Below, one piece after another: positions 1-23,103 of a DNA stretch of 23,103 nt. Below the pieces are notes generated by a model that searched no databases, was not told the DNA's origin, and saw only the letters and a list, made by a program, of their open reading frames with translations. The stretch's first letter is position 1. The number at the start of each line of letters is the position of its first letter. Both the position numbers and the translations under genes were made by a program. Source of the DNA: a virus; IMG/VR virus record IMGVR_UViG_3300009085_000089, positions 1 through 23,103 of that record. One strand, given 5' to 3'.

Positions 1-274
1 CTTTAAACCCGTAAAGAGAACCATAAGTAAATTTTCTAATTGTGTACAGCAGAAACAAACGATCTCCAGATAAAAGATCTAAAGGCCGTAAACCTGCTTC
101 CTTCAGTGTCGGAACACAATTATCAATTAGAGTATTCAAAATAGGTATCATATCAAATCTGCCAGCTAATAATTCTTCCTGCACCGTCTTCATCGGCAAG
201 ACTTCTACTTCTCCACCAACTAAATTAGGATACGTAAGTCCTTTTGATGGTAATACAACTCTATTTCCTAGCAT
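1..274 (-). CDS. T4-type baseplate protein (gp26-like), 3' end cut by window edge
   Basis: The ATG at 274 has an AAGGAG ribosome site (plus-strand ctcctt at 284-289) 9 nt upstream, and the frame stays open for 91 codons to the window edge. The protein begins MLGNRVVLPSKGLTYPN and continues with VEVLPMKTVQEELLAG, then IDNCVPTLKEAGLRP, DLLSGDRLFLLYTIRKFTYGS. This matches my memory of the T4_baseplate (gp26-like) family: an LPSxGxxYP start, a V.PMTxxEE..L segment, a conserved ID.C, and a DLL.GDR....IR...YG.Y stretch. Members are baseplate hub or assembly proteins in contractile-tailed phages. It is the last gene of the tail module visible here and follows the run of small helical proteins. Family membership is inferred by eye. 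The C-terminus is outside the window. Confidence 0.72.
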   Translation of the reverse strand, partial: MLGNRVVLPSKGLTYPNLVGGEVEVLPMKTVQEELLAGRFDMIPILNTLIDNCVPTLKEAGLRPLDLLSGDRLFLLYTIRKFTYGSLYGFK

Positions 275-315: not shown

Positions 316-615
316 TTAGAGTTTCTGCAAATCTATAACAACACTTTTTTGAACTCTGCGTAATTCCACAAGCATTTTGGTTAATGCACGATCTACATCA
401 TCTGCGTTCTGTTTTTGCTCTCCTGCTTCAAACAAGTCAATTGACACATCGCGAGCTGTAGTCATGTTATCGACTGCCCCCGTAAATGCATCTACTACTT
501 TTTTAAGGTCTTCTCCAAACGTAGCTTTCACTCTAATCTTCAACCCCAACGCTTTAGCTACTTGCAGTGCAAGCTTAGGGTTCTTTCTGTATAAGGTTTT
601 AAGTTCATTTTTCAT
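316..615 (-). CDS. Small helical protein with shared N-terminal module (paralog A)
   Basis: A 99-aa protein of unknown function. The first ~31 residues (MKNELKTLYRKNPKLALQVA, then KALGLKIRVKA) are almost identical to those of the next two upstream genes, while the remaining ~68 residues are different, acidic and predicted helical (DAFTGAVDNMTTARD, DDVDRALTKMLVELRR). I chose the ATG at 615 because a GGAG lies 8 nt upstream. A GTG three codons earlier is in frame but overlaps that ribosome site. There is no signal peptide or membrane segment. It sits between the tail tube and the baseplate gene, so a structural or assembly role is likely. The conserved module could be a docking, targeting or cleavable tag. 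Function is inferred only from position. Confidence 0.75.
   Translation of the reverse strand: MKNELKTLYRKNPKLALQVAKALGLKIRVKATFGEDLKKVVDAFTGAVDNMTTARDVSIDLFEAGEQKQNADDVDRALTKMLVELRRVQKSVVIDLQKL
531..615 (-). repeat. DNA repeat encoding the shared N-terminal module, copy A
   Basis: This ~85-bp stretch, read from the start codon inward, is nearly identical at the DNA level to 937-1021 and 1219-1303. Conservation includes synonymous positions (the core gctacttgcagtgcaag on the plus strand differs by only single bases), so the three copies reflect recent duplication rather than only protein-level constraint. Similarity stops just after the module, where the three proteins become unrelated. Confidence 0.8.
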
Positions 616-634
616 GTATTGCACTCCGTTTCAC

Positions 635-1021
635 CTACTTCAGAAGCTTACTTAACTCTACCAATTGATGTACCGCTGCTTTCTGTTCATTTGTAAGCGG
701 TGCAGTATTTAACTTAGCAGTTTCTGCAAGTCCAGCAAGGGCTGAGCGTGCTATCCACACATCACTTGTCGCTTTTCCAAGAGCTTGATCCACCAAGTTG
801 CGATATTTTTTTCCTTGATTCTCAAACACCTTCGCTAAATTTCGATTTATCCCCTTAAGTCCGTTAGCAAAAAGATCACAGCACCTTATTGCAGCATTTA
901 ACCCTTCCCACACATCCACTTCTTCAGCACTTTTCACTCTAATTTTCAGCCCTAACACTTTAGCCACTTGCAGTGCAAGTTTCGGGTTCTTTTTGTACAA
1001 AGTTTTAAGTTCATTTTTCAT
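635..1021 (-). CDS. Small helical protein with shared N-terminal module (paralog B)
   Basis: A 128-aa unknown protein. Residues 1-30 (MKNELKTLYKKNPKLALQVA, then KVLGLKIRVK) nearly match paralog A, with conservative changes. The C-terminal ~98 residues are unlike A or C: they begin SAEEVDVWEGLNAAIRCC, continue with basic helical segments and end in VHQLVELSKLLK. The start ATG at 1021 is preceded by an AAAGG site. It overlaps nothing and is 19 nt from paralog A. Predicted to be cytosolic and mostly helical. Its position inside the tail module suggests a virion or assembly component. No domain is recognised outside the N-terminal module. Confidence 0.77.
   Translation of the reverse strand: MKNELKTLYKKNPKLALQVAKVLGLKIRVKSAEEVDVWEGLNAAIRCCDLFANGLKGINRNLAKVFENQGKKYRNLVDQALGKATSDVWIARSALAGLAETAKLNTAPLTNEQKAAVHQLVELSKLLK
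937..1021 (-). repeat. DNA repeat encoding the shared N-terminal module, copy B
   Basis: Second copy of the ~85-bp repeat also seen at 531-615 and 1219-1303. It starts at the ATG and covers the codons for the lysine-rich LYKKNPKLALQVAK segment and the following GLKIRVK. It is collinear with the other two copies without gaps through the KIRVK/KIKAE codons. Confidence 0.8.
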
Positions 1022-1039
1022 TTTTGAACCTTTCTCTAA

Positions 1040-1303
1040 TTACAGCAACCACTCGAGCTGGTCTAGAAAGTCGTAAGAGTCATGAACTATTTGCTGTGCA
1101 GCTGTGCTACCGTTATCTTGAAGTATAGGTACAACCTGTGCTTGAAAAACCTTCAAAGCCTTAATCAGTTGTTTTGTAACCGCTACCGCTTTACTGTCAA
1201 GTGACATGCCTTGCTCTGCTTTAATCTTGTACCCCAATGCTTTGGCTACTTGCAGTGCAAGCTTAGGGTTCTTTTTGTATAAGGTTCTAAGTTCAGTTTT
1301 CAT
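1040..1303 (-). CDS. Small helical protein with shared N-terminal module (paralog C)
   Basis: An 87-aa unknown protein. The start is placed at the ATG at 1303 (MKTELRTLYKKNPKLALQVA), because a GGAAG site precedes it and because the shared module then begins at residue 1 as in A and B. A longer reading from 1369 would run back through the end of the preceding gene. After KALGYKIKAEQG comes a short helical C-terminal part (SKAVAVTKQLIKALKVFQAQ) with an acidic, aromatic end (YDFLDQLEWLL). The ribosome site lies inside the last codons of the upstream gene, suggesting translational coupling. Function is unknown. Confidence 0.75.
   Translation of the reverse strand: MKTELRTLYKKNPKLALQVAKALGYKIKAEQGMSLDSKAVAVTKQLIKALKVFQAQVVPILQDNGSTAAQQIVHDSYDFLDQLEWLL
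1219..1303 (-). repeat. DNA repeat encoding the shared N-terminal module, copy C
   Basis: Third copy of the ~85-bp repeat (others at 531-615 and 937-1021). The first ~65 bp from the start codon are the best conserved. The last ~20 bp, encoding GYKIKAE rather than GLKIRVK, are more diverged. Confidence 0.76.
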
Positions 1304-1307
1304 ATAA

Positions 1308-1694
1308 TTATTCTTCCACTTTAAATTTACCAAATTGTTTGTAAATACGCAAAACATCTTTTGGTGCAATAAATTTAGGTTTATCTCTCCCTTGAATCAC
1401 GTCTCCTAACTGGAATAGAGGCACGTAGCGTCCTTCGTAAGCTGCAAAACGCGTCTCTAAAGGTTCCTTAACTACAACTCTATTTTTTGGATCAGTAATT
1501 ATTACCCAAAAACGCTCCCTATCTTGATTAATGTGATCAACAATCATAGTAAACCCTATATCACTTACAGCTGTAAAAGGGAAACCAAAACCTTGCTTAT
1601 CACGCGACTTACTTGCTTTCACAATAAGGTTAAGCACTCTGCACGCTAAAGCAGCTTGCCCTTGTGTGCGTAATGCTTGTATTAATCTCTGCAT
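1308..1694 (-). CDS. Small protein with diverged N-terminal module and beta-rich C-terminal domain (paralog D)
   Basis: A 128-aa unknown protein. I start it at the ATG at 1694 because a full AAGGAGG site lies 5 nt upstream. An in-frame ATG at 1787 has only a weak site and would add a basic, low-complexity stretch. The first ~25 residues (MQRLIQALRTQGQAALACRV, then LNLIVKAS) align with the shared module, with paralog F (LACKVL and VKAD) as a clear intermediate. The rest is different in kind: an aromatic, strand-rich domain (FGFPFTAVSDIGFTMIVDHI, RFWVIITDP, RYVPLFQLGDVI) ending in a basic helix. It resembles no family I know. It looks like the same tag carrying a folded beta domain. Confidence 0.68.
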   Translation of the reverse strand: MQRLIQALRTQGQAALACRVLNLIVKASKSRDKQGFGFPFTAVSDIGFTMIVDHINQDRERFWVIITDPKNRVVVKEPLETRFAAYEGRYVPLFQLGDVIQGRDKPKFIAPKDVLRIYKQFGKFKVEE

Positions 1695-1699
1695 GCTAG

Positions 1700-1706
1700 C
1701 CTCCTT
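1700..1706 (-). promoter_or_regulatory. Shine-Dalgarno site deciding the start of paralog D
   Basis: Plus-strand cctcctt reads AAGGAGG on the coding strand, 5 nt before the ATG at 1694. It is the strongest ribosome site of this gene cluster and supports the internal start over the longer reading frame. Confidence 0.75.
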
Positions 1707-1805
1707 CACTTTGCTATCCGGGTACCTCCGCACTTTAGTGCTTTGCCTTGTGAGTTGGGAGTTTTGCTGTAAATACTTTGACTTCATTTTTCACATAAAC
1801 TTTCT

Positions 1806-2087
1806 TTACCACTGACCGGCTTCATAACTTTGTAGCTGTTCAAGTAGACTATCAACAAGCTGAGCAACCTCATTTGTAGTAGCTCCGCCTTCACGTCCCT
1901 TTTGCAGTATCAGTAGTTCCTTACTCTTAAACTGCTCTAACGCTTTAATGGTGCGCAAAATACCTTGAGCCGCTTTTTTTAGATTTGCCCCTTTGAGTTC
2001 GGCATGAATTCTATAACCTAGAACTTTAGCCACCCGCTGAGCACGTTTCGGGTCCTTTCTGTACAGCGCTTTGATTGCATTTACCAT
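1806..2087 (-). CDS. Small helical protein with shared N-terminal module (paralog E)
   Basis: A 93-aa unknown protein. The start ATG at 2087 has an AAAGGGG site upstream. The N-terminus MVNAIKALYRKDPKRAQRVA, then KVLGYRIHAELKG, is the shared module in a somewhat diverged form: the KALYRK-DP-RAQRVAKVLGYRI frame is kept, but the DNA is no longer closely similar to copies A-C. The C-terminal part is a lysine- and glutamine-rich helix (LRTIKALEQFKSKELLILQK) followed by VAQLVDSLLEQLQSYE, similar in layout to paralog C (helix ending in DFLDQLEW). C and E may therefore be closer relatives over their full length. Function is unknown. Confidence 0.75.
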   Translation of the reverse strand: MVNAIKALYRKDPKRAQRVAKVLGYRIHAELKGANLKKAAQGILRTIKALEQFKSKELLILQKGREGGATTNEVAQLVDSLLEQLQSYEAGQW

Positions 2088-2101
2088 TACAAAACCCCTT
2101 T

Positions 2102-2404
2102 CTAATCTAATTCAATATCTTTGTACAAAATATCTACAACTATAGAATCAATATCAATCTGTTTGCGCAGTGCTTTGATTACCTGCTCTACATATTGCTT
2201 CTTCACTGCAGGTGTATAATAATTTTTGTACGCAGGTTCTTTAGAAATATCGCTAGCTACTTCATCAACTAAAACTATAGCAATGTGCTTGATTGCTTTC
2301 TCTACTTCCGCATTTACATCTGCTTTAACATACTTTGCCACCGCTAGCACCTTACAAGCTAGAGTGGGGTTCTTTTTTGAAAGCGCTTTAATAATTTTTC
2401 GCAT
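2102..2404 (-). CDS. Small helical protein with shared N-terminal module (paralog F)
   Basis: A 100-aa unknown protein directly downstream of the tail tube gene. The ATG at 2404 follows an AAAGGTG site that overlaps the tube stop codon region. Residues 1-27 (MRKIIKALSKKNPTLACKVL, then AVAKYVKA) keep the KALxKKNPxLAxKV pattern of the module. The C-terminal part is helical and acidic (AEVEKAIKHIAIVLVDEVAS, QYVEQVIKALRKQIDID) and ends ILYKDIELD. It links the near-identical group A-C with the diverged paralog D. No known domain is recognised. Its position argues for a tail or virion-assembly role. Confidence 0.75.
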   Translation of the reverse strand: MRKIIKALSKKNPTLACKVLAVAKYVKADVNAEVEKAIKHIAIVLVDEVASDISKEPAYKNYYTPAVKKQYVEQVIKALRKQIDIDSIVVDILYKDIELD

Positions 2405-2417
2405 CCTAGGTACACCT

Positions 2418-2996
2418 TTATGCTACAACATCAGCACTACTAGATAATAGTTTCGGTATTGCTTTGTCATATCTAATAGTAATCTGAATCTTATTCATTT
2501 CGTTTGAAGACATATCTAGTGTGTCTCCGTACACGACATCCTTCGGCCAGCACCCTCTCAAAATCCACTCTCTCCTATACGTGCCATCCGGAGCAAACAA
2601 AACAACGGAAGCATCTACTTTATAATCTTTAGCTAATCCGATCTTACCTGTTTCAGGATCATACACTTTTTTCCGCCAATCTGAAATTGCTTTCATAACA
2701 GGCTGATCCACATAATCCTTCAATCCAAGGGTGCCTTCATCAAACAATGGTTTACCTGCTACATAAACTTTCTCATTGACGAAATTAATTTCCAACTCCT
2801 CACTATGCTCAGTCGGCAGAAAACCCGTATCCAAAGCTAACTCAATAACTCTTTTAGTATCGTTACTACCCGCTGAGGGAGGAGTAACTTCAAAATACCA
2901 GTTGTTTTGTCTTTGGACTTCATAGTTGCCTTGAATTCTTGAATCATTTGCACGAGAACCCGCACTAATATGTCCTGCTGATAGTTGAACAGCCAT
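2418..2996 (-). CDS. Tail tube protein, T4 gp19 family
   Basis: A 192-aa protein, close to the usual 160-200 aa of gp19-type tube subunits, which stack as hexameric rings inside the contractile sheath. Recognisable features are the NNWYFEV start of the core, LALDTGFLPTEHSEELEI, a strand with KVYVAGKPLF, then YVDQPVMKAISDWRKKVYDP, and the terminal strands RREWILRGCWPKDVVYG and DMSSNEMNKIQITIRYDKAI. The pattern of a W-R helix followed by 'Y(d)p.tG' and a late 'i..ir.d.a' strand is typical of the family. The ATG at 2996 has an AGGAG site 7 nt upstream. It lies downstream of the sheath gene as expected, but two small genes separate them. Confidence in the family is high. Confidence 0.93.
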   Translation of the reverse strand: MAVQLSAGHISAGSRANDSRIQGNYEVQRQNNWYFEVTPPSAGSNDTKRVIELALDTGFLPTEHSEELEINFVNEKVYVAGKPLFDEGTLGLKDYVDQPVMKAISDWRKKVYDPETGKIGLAKDYKVDASVVLFAPDGTYRREWILRGCWPKDVVYGDTLDMSSNEMNKIQITIRYDKAIPKLLSSSADVVA

Positions 2997-3005
2997 GCTA
3001 ATCTC

Positions 3006-3356
3006 CTACATAAATTTTTCTTCGTTTGTGTTAGTATCCTGAGCTACATTCTCCTCAGAGCCTACTTCGTTAGACTTAAATTCGAAATACTCTCCAAGGA
3101 TTTTAGCAAATTTATCCTCTAACCTGTCAAAGTCTCCTTCAAGCAAATCTTCCACATCTGAAATTGTGCCTATTTTTTGCCTGAGGAGCTTTTTTGTGAT
3201 TGTTTCAATCTTATCTCTTATTGTTGCTGCTAGGTTAATTGCTTCAATCTTACCTTTGCGCCGTGTTTCTTTAGTTGCCAGCACTTCTCGCATTTCCTCA
3301 GCTAGAGTAAAGCACCCTTGCACTTCTAAGAGATTTATAATATCTTCATGTTTCAT
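3006..3356 (-). CDS. Small helical protein, sheath-tube interval (paralog G, distant)
   Basis: A 116-aa unknown protein. The start is set at the ATG at 3356 (MKHEDIINLLEVQGCFTLAE), which has a GAGGTG site 3-8 nt upstream. An earlier in-frame codon overlaps the previous gene. The N-terminus has the helix-turn-helix-like layout LLEVQGxFTLAEEMREVL, a looser version of the module in paralogs A-F. It then resembles its upstream neighbour: a basic RRKGK segment, a helix ending TIRDKIETITKKLL and another helix DFDRLEDKFAKILGEYFEF, and a polar acidic tail (EENVAQDTNTNEE). Probably a coiled or helical virion-associated protein. No function can be assigned. Confidence 0.72.
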   Translation of the reverse strand: MKHEDIINLLEVQGCFTLAEEMREVLATKETRRKGKIEAINLAATIRDKIETITKKLLRQKIGTISDVEDLLEGDFDRLEDKFAKILGEYFEFKSNEVGSEENVAQDTNTNEEKFM

Positions 3357-3366
3357 ATGCACCTCT

Positions 3367-3660
3367 TTATGCTTCAGCACTTTCTAACACTTCCTGTAAC
3401 GCTGTATTTAGCTCACTACGCAATGTGTTTAAAGAATTGCTTATGATCTTTTCCACATAAAAGATTGCAGTAGAAAGATCGTTGTCTGCTAACACCTGTG
3501 AAATAGCTTCTTTAATCTTGGAAGTGATTATACCTGCAACCTCTTCACTGCTAGCTTTTTTGTTGTTCCGGCGTGCTGCTTTTACCTGTTTTTTGCGAAG
3601 TTGCTCAGCAGCTACAAACCGGCCTGCACGCTCCAATTTATCTATAGTTCTACTTTGCAT
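3367..3660 (-). CDS. Small helical protein, sheath-tube interval (paralog H, distant)
   Basis: A 97-aa unknown protein directly downstream of the sheath gene, with an AAGGAAGGG site before the ATG at 3660. The N-terminus IDKLERAGRFVAAEQLRKK has the short two-helix pattern (LExxGxFxxAExLR) seen in paralog G, and the same order follows: a basic RRNNKK linker, a helix EEVAGIITSKIKEAISQVLA, and a last amphipathic helix ending LNTALQEVLESAEA. G and H therefore look like a duplicated pair. It is separated from G by 10 nt and the ribosome site of G lies right after its stop. Likely part of tail assembly by position; function unknown. Confidence 0.73.
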   Translation of the reverse strand: MQSRTIDKLERAGRFVAAEQLRKKQVKAARRNNKKASSEEVAGIITSKIKEAISQVLADNDLSTAIFYVEKIISNSLNTLRSELNTALQEVLESAEA

Positions 3661-5855: not shown

Positions 5856-6857
5856 TTAACGGATTTCTAAAAAACCCTTTGCTATTCTTGCACGAATATC
5901 CTCAGACATTTCTTCAGATGCTACCGCTACCATTTGACCAGCTAGAATAGGAATTGTGGTATCTTTTCCGTTACGAACAATATGAACTTCTTGCAGTTGC
6001 GGTAATTTGTTTACTAATTTTTTCTTCATACTTTTGATCTCCTTTGGTGCTTTTTTTGGCACATCTACAGGCCGTTGGAGTGCAAATGTGTTTTGGATAA
6101 CCTCCGTATCTGCAAAGTACCATGCATCTAAACAGTACATTTTAAAGTAATCATAACTTATATAACCGTATCCGTGAGCTCCCCATTCAGTGCCCCAACT
6201 GTTCTTAAACTTAATTAGTTCAGCACTATCATCAAATCCAACAGCACAAATTGCATGCCCACCACGCCTTTTTTCTCCTCTTTTCGGCATAGGCACAACA
6301 CTTTGGTCATTTGGTCTAAAAATACCGTCAAAACAGATCACACCGATAGCTAAAGGCCCTCTAGTTAAAAGCAGCTTAAACTCCTCTAAGGAGGCTATAC
6401 GCCAGTAAGAACCGCATTTGTACCATTGAGCTACATTAGCCGCCCATTTTTCAGGCTCTCCTTTATGTACAGCATCATAACTCCACCCTTGCTCTACGGG
6501 TACACCAGAATCAGTGAGTACCTTCATTGCAAATCTAAATGATGTACCCTCTACACCCGGCCAAACATCAATATCTTTGCATTTATAGTACAACCACTGC
6601 TCGGAGAGATCATACAACTTTGATTGATCAAAAGTCTGCTTAAATTGGGTTTTTTCTTGCCACTCTTTCACAGCTACCACTGCAAAAGCTACACAGCTCC
6701 CTAATTTCCCTTGGTTCTTTACCGGGGTCATATCCAGCTCCCAATCTACTCCAGTTTGCGATACTGCAGGCGTAATTGTATTTTTTAATAAGTTTGACGC
6801 AAGATAATCCCGACTATCCTCTGGATCTTTTTGTGCCCCAAAAAGCACGTTTGGCAT
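5856..6857 (-). CDS. Papain-like (C1A) cysteine protease in the tail module
   Basis: A 333-aa protein with a complete papain-type active site: oxyanion-hole Gln49 and catalytic Cys55 in VKNQGKLGSCVAFA, catalytic His201 in GGHAICAVGFDD, and catalytic Asn219 in FKNSWGTEWGAHGYGYISYD. The catalytic domain covers roughly residues 35-255. About 80 residues follow, including a basic stretch (KKAPKEIKSMKKKLVNK) and a small strand-rich end. There is no clear signal peptide or long propeptide, unlike secreted papains, so it probably acts in the phage-producing cell or in the virion. The ATG overlaps the stop of the previous gene by one base (TAATG) and has an AGGAGGTGG site, so the two are co-translated. 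It lies immediately upstream of the sheath gene, suggesting processing of a structural protein or a tail-associated hydrolase. The substrate is unknown. Confidence 0.9.
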   Translation of the reverse strand: MPNVLFGAQKDPEDSRDYLASNLLKNTITPAVSQTGVDWELDMTPVKNQGKLGSCVAFAVVAVKEWQEKTQFKQTFDQSKLYDLSEQWLYYKCKDIDVWPGVEGTSFRFAMKVLTDSGVPVEQGWSYDAVHKGEPEKWAANVAQWYKCGSYWRIASLEEFKLLLTRGPLAIGVICFDGIFRPNDQSVVPMPKRGEKRRGGHAICAVGFDDSAELIKFKNSWGTEWGAHGYGYISYDYFKMYCLDAWYFADTEVIQNTFALQRPVDVPKKAPKEIKSMKKKLVNKLPQLQEVHIVRNGKDTTIPILAGQMVAVASEEMSEDIRARIAKGFLEIR

Positions 6858-22027: not shown

Positions 22028-23103
22028 CTATAATATATTCCAAACAATTCTACCGTCAACAATCGTCAATACACTTGTGGTGCTTGCCATTGTTGGCATG
22101 ACATTTGGATCAAAAATATCTGCAGATAGCACAGCTAAATCAGCAAGCTTGCCGGGCTGTAAGCTACCCTTTATTGCTTCTTGGAACTCTGCATACGCAC
22201 TTCCCAAAGTGTACAGAGTGACTGCAGTAGGCATATCTACACCTTCATTTGCATTTAGTGGATGAGCTACACAAAGCAACAAGTCCAGATATGGGTTCCC
22301 TAAGCCACCAAGTTGATCCGAGGATAACGCCACCTTAGCTCCTCCTAAAACTAACGAGCGTAAGAGCTGCGTTTGCGTAGCAAACCGTTCGGGCCCGACT
22401 CTTCGATAAATGGTTTCTCCCATAATAAACTGACTAGGAGCTTTTACGATAACAACACCCTTAGCAACTAATGCAGGTATTTGATCTGGACGGATCATCA
22501 TCCCATGCTCAATTCGTGGGCGTCTAAGCTTCCATTGCAAATCATAAGAAGATGCCCCACTCATTGCTGATAATAAATGATCTACTGCTCCATCTCCATT
22601 AACATGGAATAGCCGCTGATACGTCCTAAACGGAAATCCATTCAATGCATCTGCTACTAATGTATTAATATCGTTTGGGAAAACTTCTCTCCCATACCAG
22701 GTAGGAGCATCATAATAAGGCTGAGCTAAATACATGCCTGATTCCTGCTCAGTGCCATCCGTAATCCACTTCACACCTGCAGAAAGGACTTTACCGAATG
22801 GATTTTGCCACTCTCGGCCATTATACATACTAAGCGACTCTTCCCTAGTAAATGGGAAGCCTACATTACGCACACGCACAGGTAAATTCATCCCCTTAAG
22901 AATATTTTCGTATCTTAGAGAGTCAATTCCAATTGAGATGTCCTGAATAGATGTGATCCCTTGCTGTGCACAGCCTAGTAACAATTGTGATAACTGTGCT
23001 TGAAATTCAGAATCCGGAATTTGAGATCGCATAATTTGGGCGAACCAATAGATTGCATAATCCTGCATCACACCTGTAGGCTCTCCATTAGCATCCCTAA
23101 CAA
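22028..23103 (-). CDS. YtcJ-like metal-dependent amidohydrolase, 5' end cut by window edge
   Basis: 357 residues are visible to the right edge. The frame continues upstream of the GTG at 23071 as VRDANGEPTG, so the true start is outside. The Amidohydro_3 pattern is clear: VRDANGEPTGVMQDYA, AGVKWITDGTEQES with the lysine expected to bridge metals, PYYD, FHVNGDGAVDHLL (metal histidine), RPRIEHGMMIRPDQIPAL (second histidine), a SSDQLGG end of the barrel (metal aspartate), and GSLQPGKLADLAVLSADIF at the end. The N-terminal HxH lies outside. Enzymes of this group hydrolyse amide or ester bonds in small molecules. Such a gene is unusual in a phage and is probably an acquired metabolic gene. Substrate unknown. 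Confidence 0.85.
   Translation of the reverse strand, partial: VRDANGEPTGVMQDYAIYWFAQIMRSQIPDSEFQAQLSQLLLGCAQQGITSIQDISIGIDSLRYENILKGMNLPVRVRNVGFPFTREESLSMYNGREWQNPFGKVLSAGVKWITDGTEQESGMYLAQPYYDAPTWYGREVFPNDINTLVADALNGFPFRTYQRLFHVNGDGAVDHLLSAMSGASSYDLQWKLRRPRIEHGMMIRPDQIPALVAKGVVIVKAPSQFIMGETIYRRVGPERFATQTQLLRSLVLGGAKVALSSDQLGGLGNPYLDLLLCVAHPLNANEGVDMPTAVTLYTLGSAYAEFQEAIKGSLQPGKLADLAVLSADIFDPNVMPTMASTTSVLTIVDGRIVWNIL

Follow-up and report, generated by a model that had tools for sequence, protein, structure and literature searches.

What do several small genes beside a tail tube gene have in common if they begin with nearly the same residues and end in parts that differ? At the locus described here this question breaks down into how many genes share the N-terminal module, whether the module is a unit of its own, and what it might do for the proteins that carry it.

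The locus and its relatives

The window, that is, the whole stretch of DNA analysed, comprises 23,103 bases of the virus record IMGVR_UViG_3300009085_000089 and is probably a genome fragment. Along its minus strand, the genes for a terminator-like protein, a papain-family peptidase and the sheath protein are followed by H, G, the tube gene, F, E, D, C, B, A and the start of a hub-type gene (Table 1). This tail cluster occupies one side of the window and replication genes the other; the window's own structural genes are tail genes, head genes being visible in relatives only. Judged by the sheath protein, the nearest isolated phages are Listeria phage LIS04, Bacillus phage SP-15 and Streptococcus phage GXN1 (35–37% identity), and the closer relatives are metagenomic contigs only (L005, 73%; G003, 68%; G002, 64%; G004, 48%). 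One more contig, G027, was grouped with this clade via its capsid protein, which is 84% identical to that of G003; searches with the capsid protein and the hub gene yielded no further members. The viruses carrying the module are large contractile-tailed viruses of bacteria.

Table 1. Positions of the module-bearing genes and of the two genes bordering them in the window.
Feature	Positions	Strand	Remarks
Hub-type gene, start	2..274	-	downstream border of the tagged block; position same in relatives
Gene A, 99 aa	316..615	-	tag = codons 1–30, 526–615; true start 615
Gene B, 128 aa	635..1021	-	tag 932–1021
Gene C, 87 aa	1040..1303	-	tag 1214–1303; true start 1303
Gene D, re-started (likely), 128 aa	1308..1694	-	possible diverged tag in first ~21 residues
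Gene E, 93 aa	1806..2087	-	tag 1998–2087; C-terminal part 65% identical to its counterpart at L066:16059-16358
Gene F, 100 aa	2102..2404	-	diverged tag, first ~25 residues
Tail tube gene (T4 gp19-like)	2418..2996	-	upstream border of the tagged block

A 90-nucleotide block at the start of the genes

Within the window, BLASTP aligned the first ~30–50 residues of A with those of B (E = 7e-16), C (3e-14) and E (3e-7), and those of B with those of C (2e-12). In their DNA these four genes share a repeat of exactly 90 nt, namely the first 30 codons, start codon included, with an identity to A of 89% in B, 87% in C and 63% in E. The flanks of A, B and C (45 nt upstream and 90 nt past the module) are identical to a random extent (24–38%), which bears out the sequence-only reading in that the genes diverge after the module; the rows of the module copy G3_m1 were misaligned and were left out of this comparison and of the pN/pS comparison below. 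F carries a diverged copy, detected at an i-E of 0.0027 among 7,534 ORFs by a profile built without F, and scored z values of 5.6–6.9 against A, B, C and E in shuffling tests.

D is less clear. Its start is likely the ATG at 1694, which is preceded by AAGGAGG, and not the one at 1787; with the start at 1694, the stretch resembling F stands at the N-terminus of the protein. This stretch is similar to F (z 4.9) but not to A, B, C or E (z about 0), so that D is a possible carrier of the module as far as its sequence goes. The remainder of D was predicted to be beta-rich at very low confidence (AF2 pLDDT 38, unusable), and no convincing relative of D was found among phages.

G and H, to which a looser version of the module had been ascribed, were rejected as carriers: their similarity to A–F is at or near chance. 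They are alike each other (z 5.1), and in relatives each is one continuous protein beside the tube gene with 40–54% identity to the window copy over ~90–110 residues. The number of genes sharing the module is therefore five, possibly six, and not eight as originally counted.

Between genomes, pN of the module is about 0.13–0.3 and pS about 0.5–0.97, indicating purifying selection. With amino acids conserved against a background of nearly saturated synonymous change, it is the peptide that is under selection; on the same grounds, an RNA or DNA element was rejected as an explanation of the conservation.

By prediction, the module probably forms two short helices of basic character, with a flexible segment (LGxKIxVKA) behind them. 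The AF2 model of E is weak (mean pLDDT 59) and shows helices at residues 2–11 and 13–22, a low-confidence segment at 26–33 and then two long helices. The proposal that the module is cleaved off found no support, because the residue pattern after LGxxI is not conserved: the module copies lack a constant cleavage site past this point, and no gp21-type site (L/I-x-E) closes the module. The end of the module was also compared with the N-terminus of the capsid protein, and no common cleavage motif was found.

The module in related contigs

A profile of the module matched 11 further genes in related contigs, six in G003, three in G027 and one each in G002 and G004. The tagged gene of G002 encodes 42 residues, which is nearly the module alone, and that of G004 a single protein with two modules in tandem. 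The C-terminal parts behind the module are mostly without detectable similarity to one another. Besides the pair of E and its L066 counterpart, only one other clear pair across genomes was found (G003 m5 and G027 m3, 45%), and a small all-against-all comparison gave weak similarity between C and E (E = 0.008) and between G3_m1 and L53_m1 (E = 3e-4). A 151-nt repeat of G003 contains the two copies that follow the tube gene; since this repeat takes in the end of the tube gene, at least one copy stems from a local duplication, the similarity of which ends inside the module. What is copied is thus a sharply bordered piece of DNA, and the C-terminal parts to which it is joined are unrelated.

The N-terminus can change, too. 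A domain with the pattern GWT...FCGSL forms the C-terminal part of the tandem-module protein of G004 and, in G002, stands behind a different N-terminus, MKKIIAELEKRGFKKEAARVRQILAEG; one C-terminal part can therefore take different N-termini. The first 31 residues of this G002 protein are 77% identical to those encoded by the neighbouring gene, the product of which has a HELGH zinc-protease motif, and the clade may thus, by sequence, have a second reusable N-terminus. With unrelated C-terminal parts, other tagged proteins in relatives, a tandem copy and one domain behind two N-termini, the module has the reusable character first attributed to it.

The profile search that had been suggested uncovered additional tagged genes in related contigs. 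At the tblastn level, the module was absent from 50,697 phage records; it was also absent from a set of bacterial and archaeal genomes scanned with exact short peptides, a kind of pattern that distant copies can escape. Pfam and PHROGs gave no meaningful match for A–H or the tagged genes of the relatives, and PDB searches with the module and with D were equally without one. As judged by these searches, the module is specific to one phage clade.

Position of the tagged genes

Structural clusters make up 92 kb of the sequence and contain each of the 16 genes with a secure tag; the other 77 kb contain none (p = 0.004–0.02, with clusters as units). The junction between the tube and hub genes holds tagged genes in the window, G002 and G003; pairs of them lie between the genes for the decoration-like and the major capsid protein in G003 and G027, and a further site is that between the portal and head protease genes in G027. 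Other sites in G003 are behind a gp25-like gene and ahead of a tail-terminator-like gene (position 300), and the tagged gene of G004 is found among baseplate-region genes. Insertion sites and copy number differ even between close relatives. In phages PaBG, BcepSauron, GR7B and Yoloswag, where core protein, decoration-like and capsid genes follow one another in the same order, no gene separates the decoration-like gene from the capsid gene. Such a distribution points to accessory genes, not to core assembly genes.

Since the tagged genes also adjoin head protease and capsid genes, besides the tail tube gene, they do not replace tail-assembly genes, contrary to what had been supposed; the relatives keep the tube, the hub-type protein and the tape measure and have the tagged genes inserted in addition. 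A fixed place and continuous conservation, as expected of tail-assembly or chaperone proteins, are seen in G and H: of the five contigs that cover the region, one being the window, all have G beside the tube gene and four have H there. A–F, in contrast, vary in number and place among relatives, which makes G and H the better candidates for assembly proteins.

Proteins alike only at their N-termini

Sixteen genomes or contig sets were screened for proteins that, within one genome, are alike only at their N-termini. Groups of at least three such proteins were obtained from the window, G003, G002 together with G027, and a further contig, G022. Of the remaining groups, that of Streptococcus phage GXN1 consisted of five large proteins in the size range of tail fibres, LIS04 yielded paralogues encoded side by side, and T4 yielded artefacts of the leader region. 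At the level of pairs the T4 tag, MKTYQEFIAEA, was recovered. N-terminus-only sharing within one genome is thus a simple criterion for screening, by which the T4 tag was picked up and, besides it, a second set of tags resembling the T4 capsid-targeting sequence (CTS), that of G022.

In G022, about ten small, mostly basic genes lie beside the terminase and portal genes (L135:12763-19787). Their tags (MNSYDRIYNILVE, MNWKQRIYESLTE, MSWKNTLLSLLED and others) are 12–14 residues long and have LxE-like ends resembling T4 sites, and G022 has a T4-type protease and capsid protein. From its sequence, the block looks like a T4-style set of tagged internal proteins. In both G022 and the window, small tagged genes stand beside virion genes, and the tail sheaths are related (37%); as far as sequences tell, G022 is the nearest evidence for tagged cargo blocks among phages with a tail of the window type. 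Its tags (MNSYDRIYNILVE and variants, 13 residues) are nevertheless not clearly homologous to the module of the window.

Possible function of the module

We consider it about an even chance (probability roughly 0.5) that the first ~30 residues of A, B, C, E and F, and perhaps D, are a reusable tag for the incorporation of accessory proteins into the virion. Such a tag would dock these proteins onto a common partner during particle assembly, most likely at the prohead core; several small tagged proteins would thereby enter the virion as non-essential cargo, possibly to be delivered to the host. The logic would be that of the T4 CTS or of the 30-residue N-terminus of P1 DarB: as with tags of that type, a short N-terminal peptide stands on otherwise different proteins, and the genes are, by position, among virion (late) genes. 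Confinement to virion genes, however, would also be expected of late virion or assembly proteins of any kind, which counts against the loading of cargo. The wider picture, in which a clade unlike T4 in its head genes has a 30-residue loading tag of its own that spreads as a DNA cassette, with interchangeable cargo, swappable N-termini and delivered effectors (as suggested by the HELGH motif of at least one protein with the other N-terminus), is a tentative one.

Alternatively, the module could be a docking domain by which small accessory proteins are fixed to a component of the tail or of the outside of the particle, without head packaging, comparable to the N-terminal domains shared by tail fibres. 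The largest block in the window does sit between the tube and hub genes, and GXN1 has one N-terminal domain on five otherwise different proteins, which we infer to be tail fibres; these proteins, however, have ~500–700 aa and the domains ~50 residues, and no tagged genes were seen in the GXN1 head clusters. Given that tagged genes of G003 and G027 are also found beside portal, protease and capsid genes, we regard anchoring to the tail as unlikely.

The module has a net charge of +4 to +8 and its second helix is amphipathic in several copies, as would suit a helix pair that binds DNA or membranes; the proteins would then stay on the phage DNA or the inner membrane while infection proceeds and would not enter the particle. 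No tagged gene was found among replication genes, though, and the sequence is conserved beyond the charge pattern, so that binding of this kind appears quite improbable.

That A–F are tail-assembly or chaperone proteins, diverged along their whole length with a slower-evolving N-terminus, is very doubtful despite C-terminal parts that mostly look helical and are of similar length and the weak C-terminal matches mentioned above (C–E, G3_m1–L53_m1), because gradual divergence would not let the DNA identity of A to B and C fall from 89% to about 30–38% at codon 30, because the GWT domain is a C-terminal part of a different type, and because A–F lack the constancy of G and H.

Comparison with known packaging signals

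If the module is indeed a loading tag, its closest parallels would be in T4 and P1. In T4, the first 10 residues suffice for packaging (PMC9026906), and in P1, 30 N-terminal residues of DarB suffice to carry a reporter into the capsid (PMC9024508). Like the module, the T4 CTS is an N-terminal peptide common to small accessory proteins with differing remainders (IPI, IPII, IPIII). It has, however, ~10 residues with a gp21 cleavage site, whereas the module has 30 residues, two predicted helices and no visible cleavage site; the two have no sequence similarity, and the module profile found no match in T4. The DarB signal is of the same length as the module, but loading in P1 is an experimental finding and the module is known from sequence alone. 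Since the head protease of the clade (PHROG 18299) is of the PaBG/Dickeya JA type and not gp21, the parallel to T4 holds by logic only. Within this limit, the comparison drawn by the sequence-only reading is plausible in view of the restriction to virion genes, the pairs between decoration-like and capsid genes, and the T4-CTS-like tags of G022.

Should the tag load proteins, the cargo of an uncultured phage group, mostly without known relatives, would be identifiable by sequence alone, and the strategy of T4 and P1 would have been reached with a different tag. The module would then be a self-contained loading peptide, the partner of which could be sought.

Further observations

The tail region of G002 encodes two HELGH zinc-protease-like proteins (L073:3472-3963 and L073:13205-14032), the second of which shares its N-terminus with the next gene. 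The GWT domain is present in about 20 metagenomic virus contigs (L080-L098, up to 618 kb) and in none of the isolated phage records; several GWT proteins have an ARVAKKW-like motif N-terminal of the domain, which recurs on other proteins of L097.

The terminase and portal ORFs of G003 are unusually long (L067:197-2476, 759 aa; L067:2861-8971, 2036 aa) in comparison with those of G027 (690 and 1127 aa). PHROG families match only parts of the G003 ORFs, and inteins or other inserts are possible.

In the window, the gene between those for the tail-terminator-like and sheath proteins (5859-6857, minus strand) encodes a papain-family (C1) cysteine peptidase (Pfam E 2e-19). A C1 peptidase, which is unusual for a tail operon, is encoded at the same site in three relatives (L005:574-1587, L066:1659-2651, L069:17358-18374). 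The contig ends with an amidohydrolase-family gene of bacterial look (22031-23101, minus strand; Pfam Amidohydro_3, E 2e-34), which may be host-derived, mark a provirus edge or stem from an assembly chimera.
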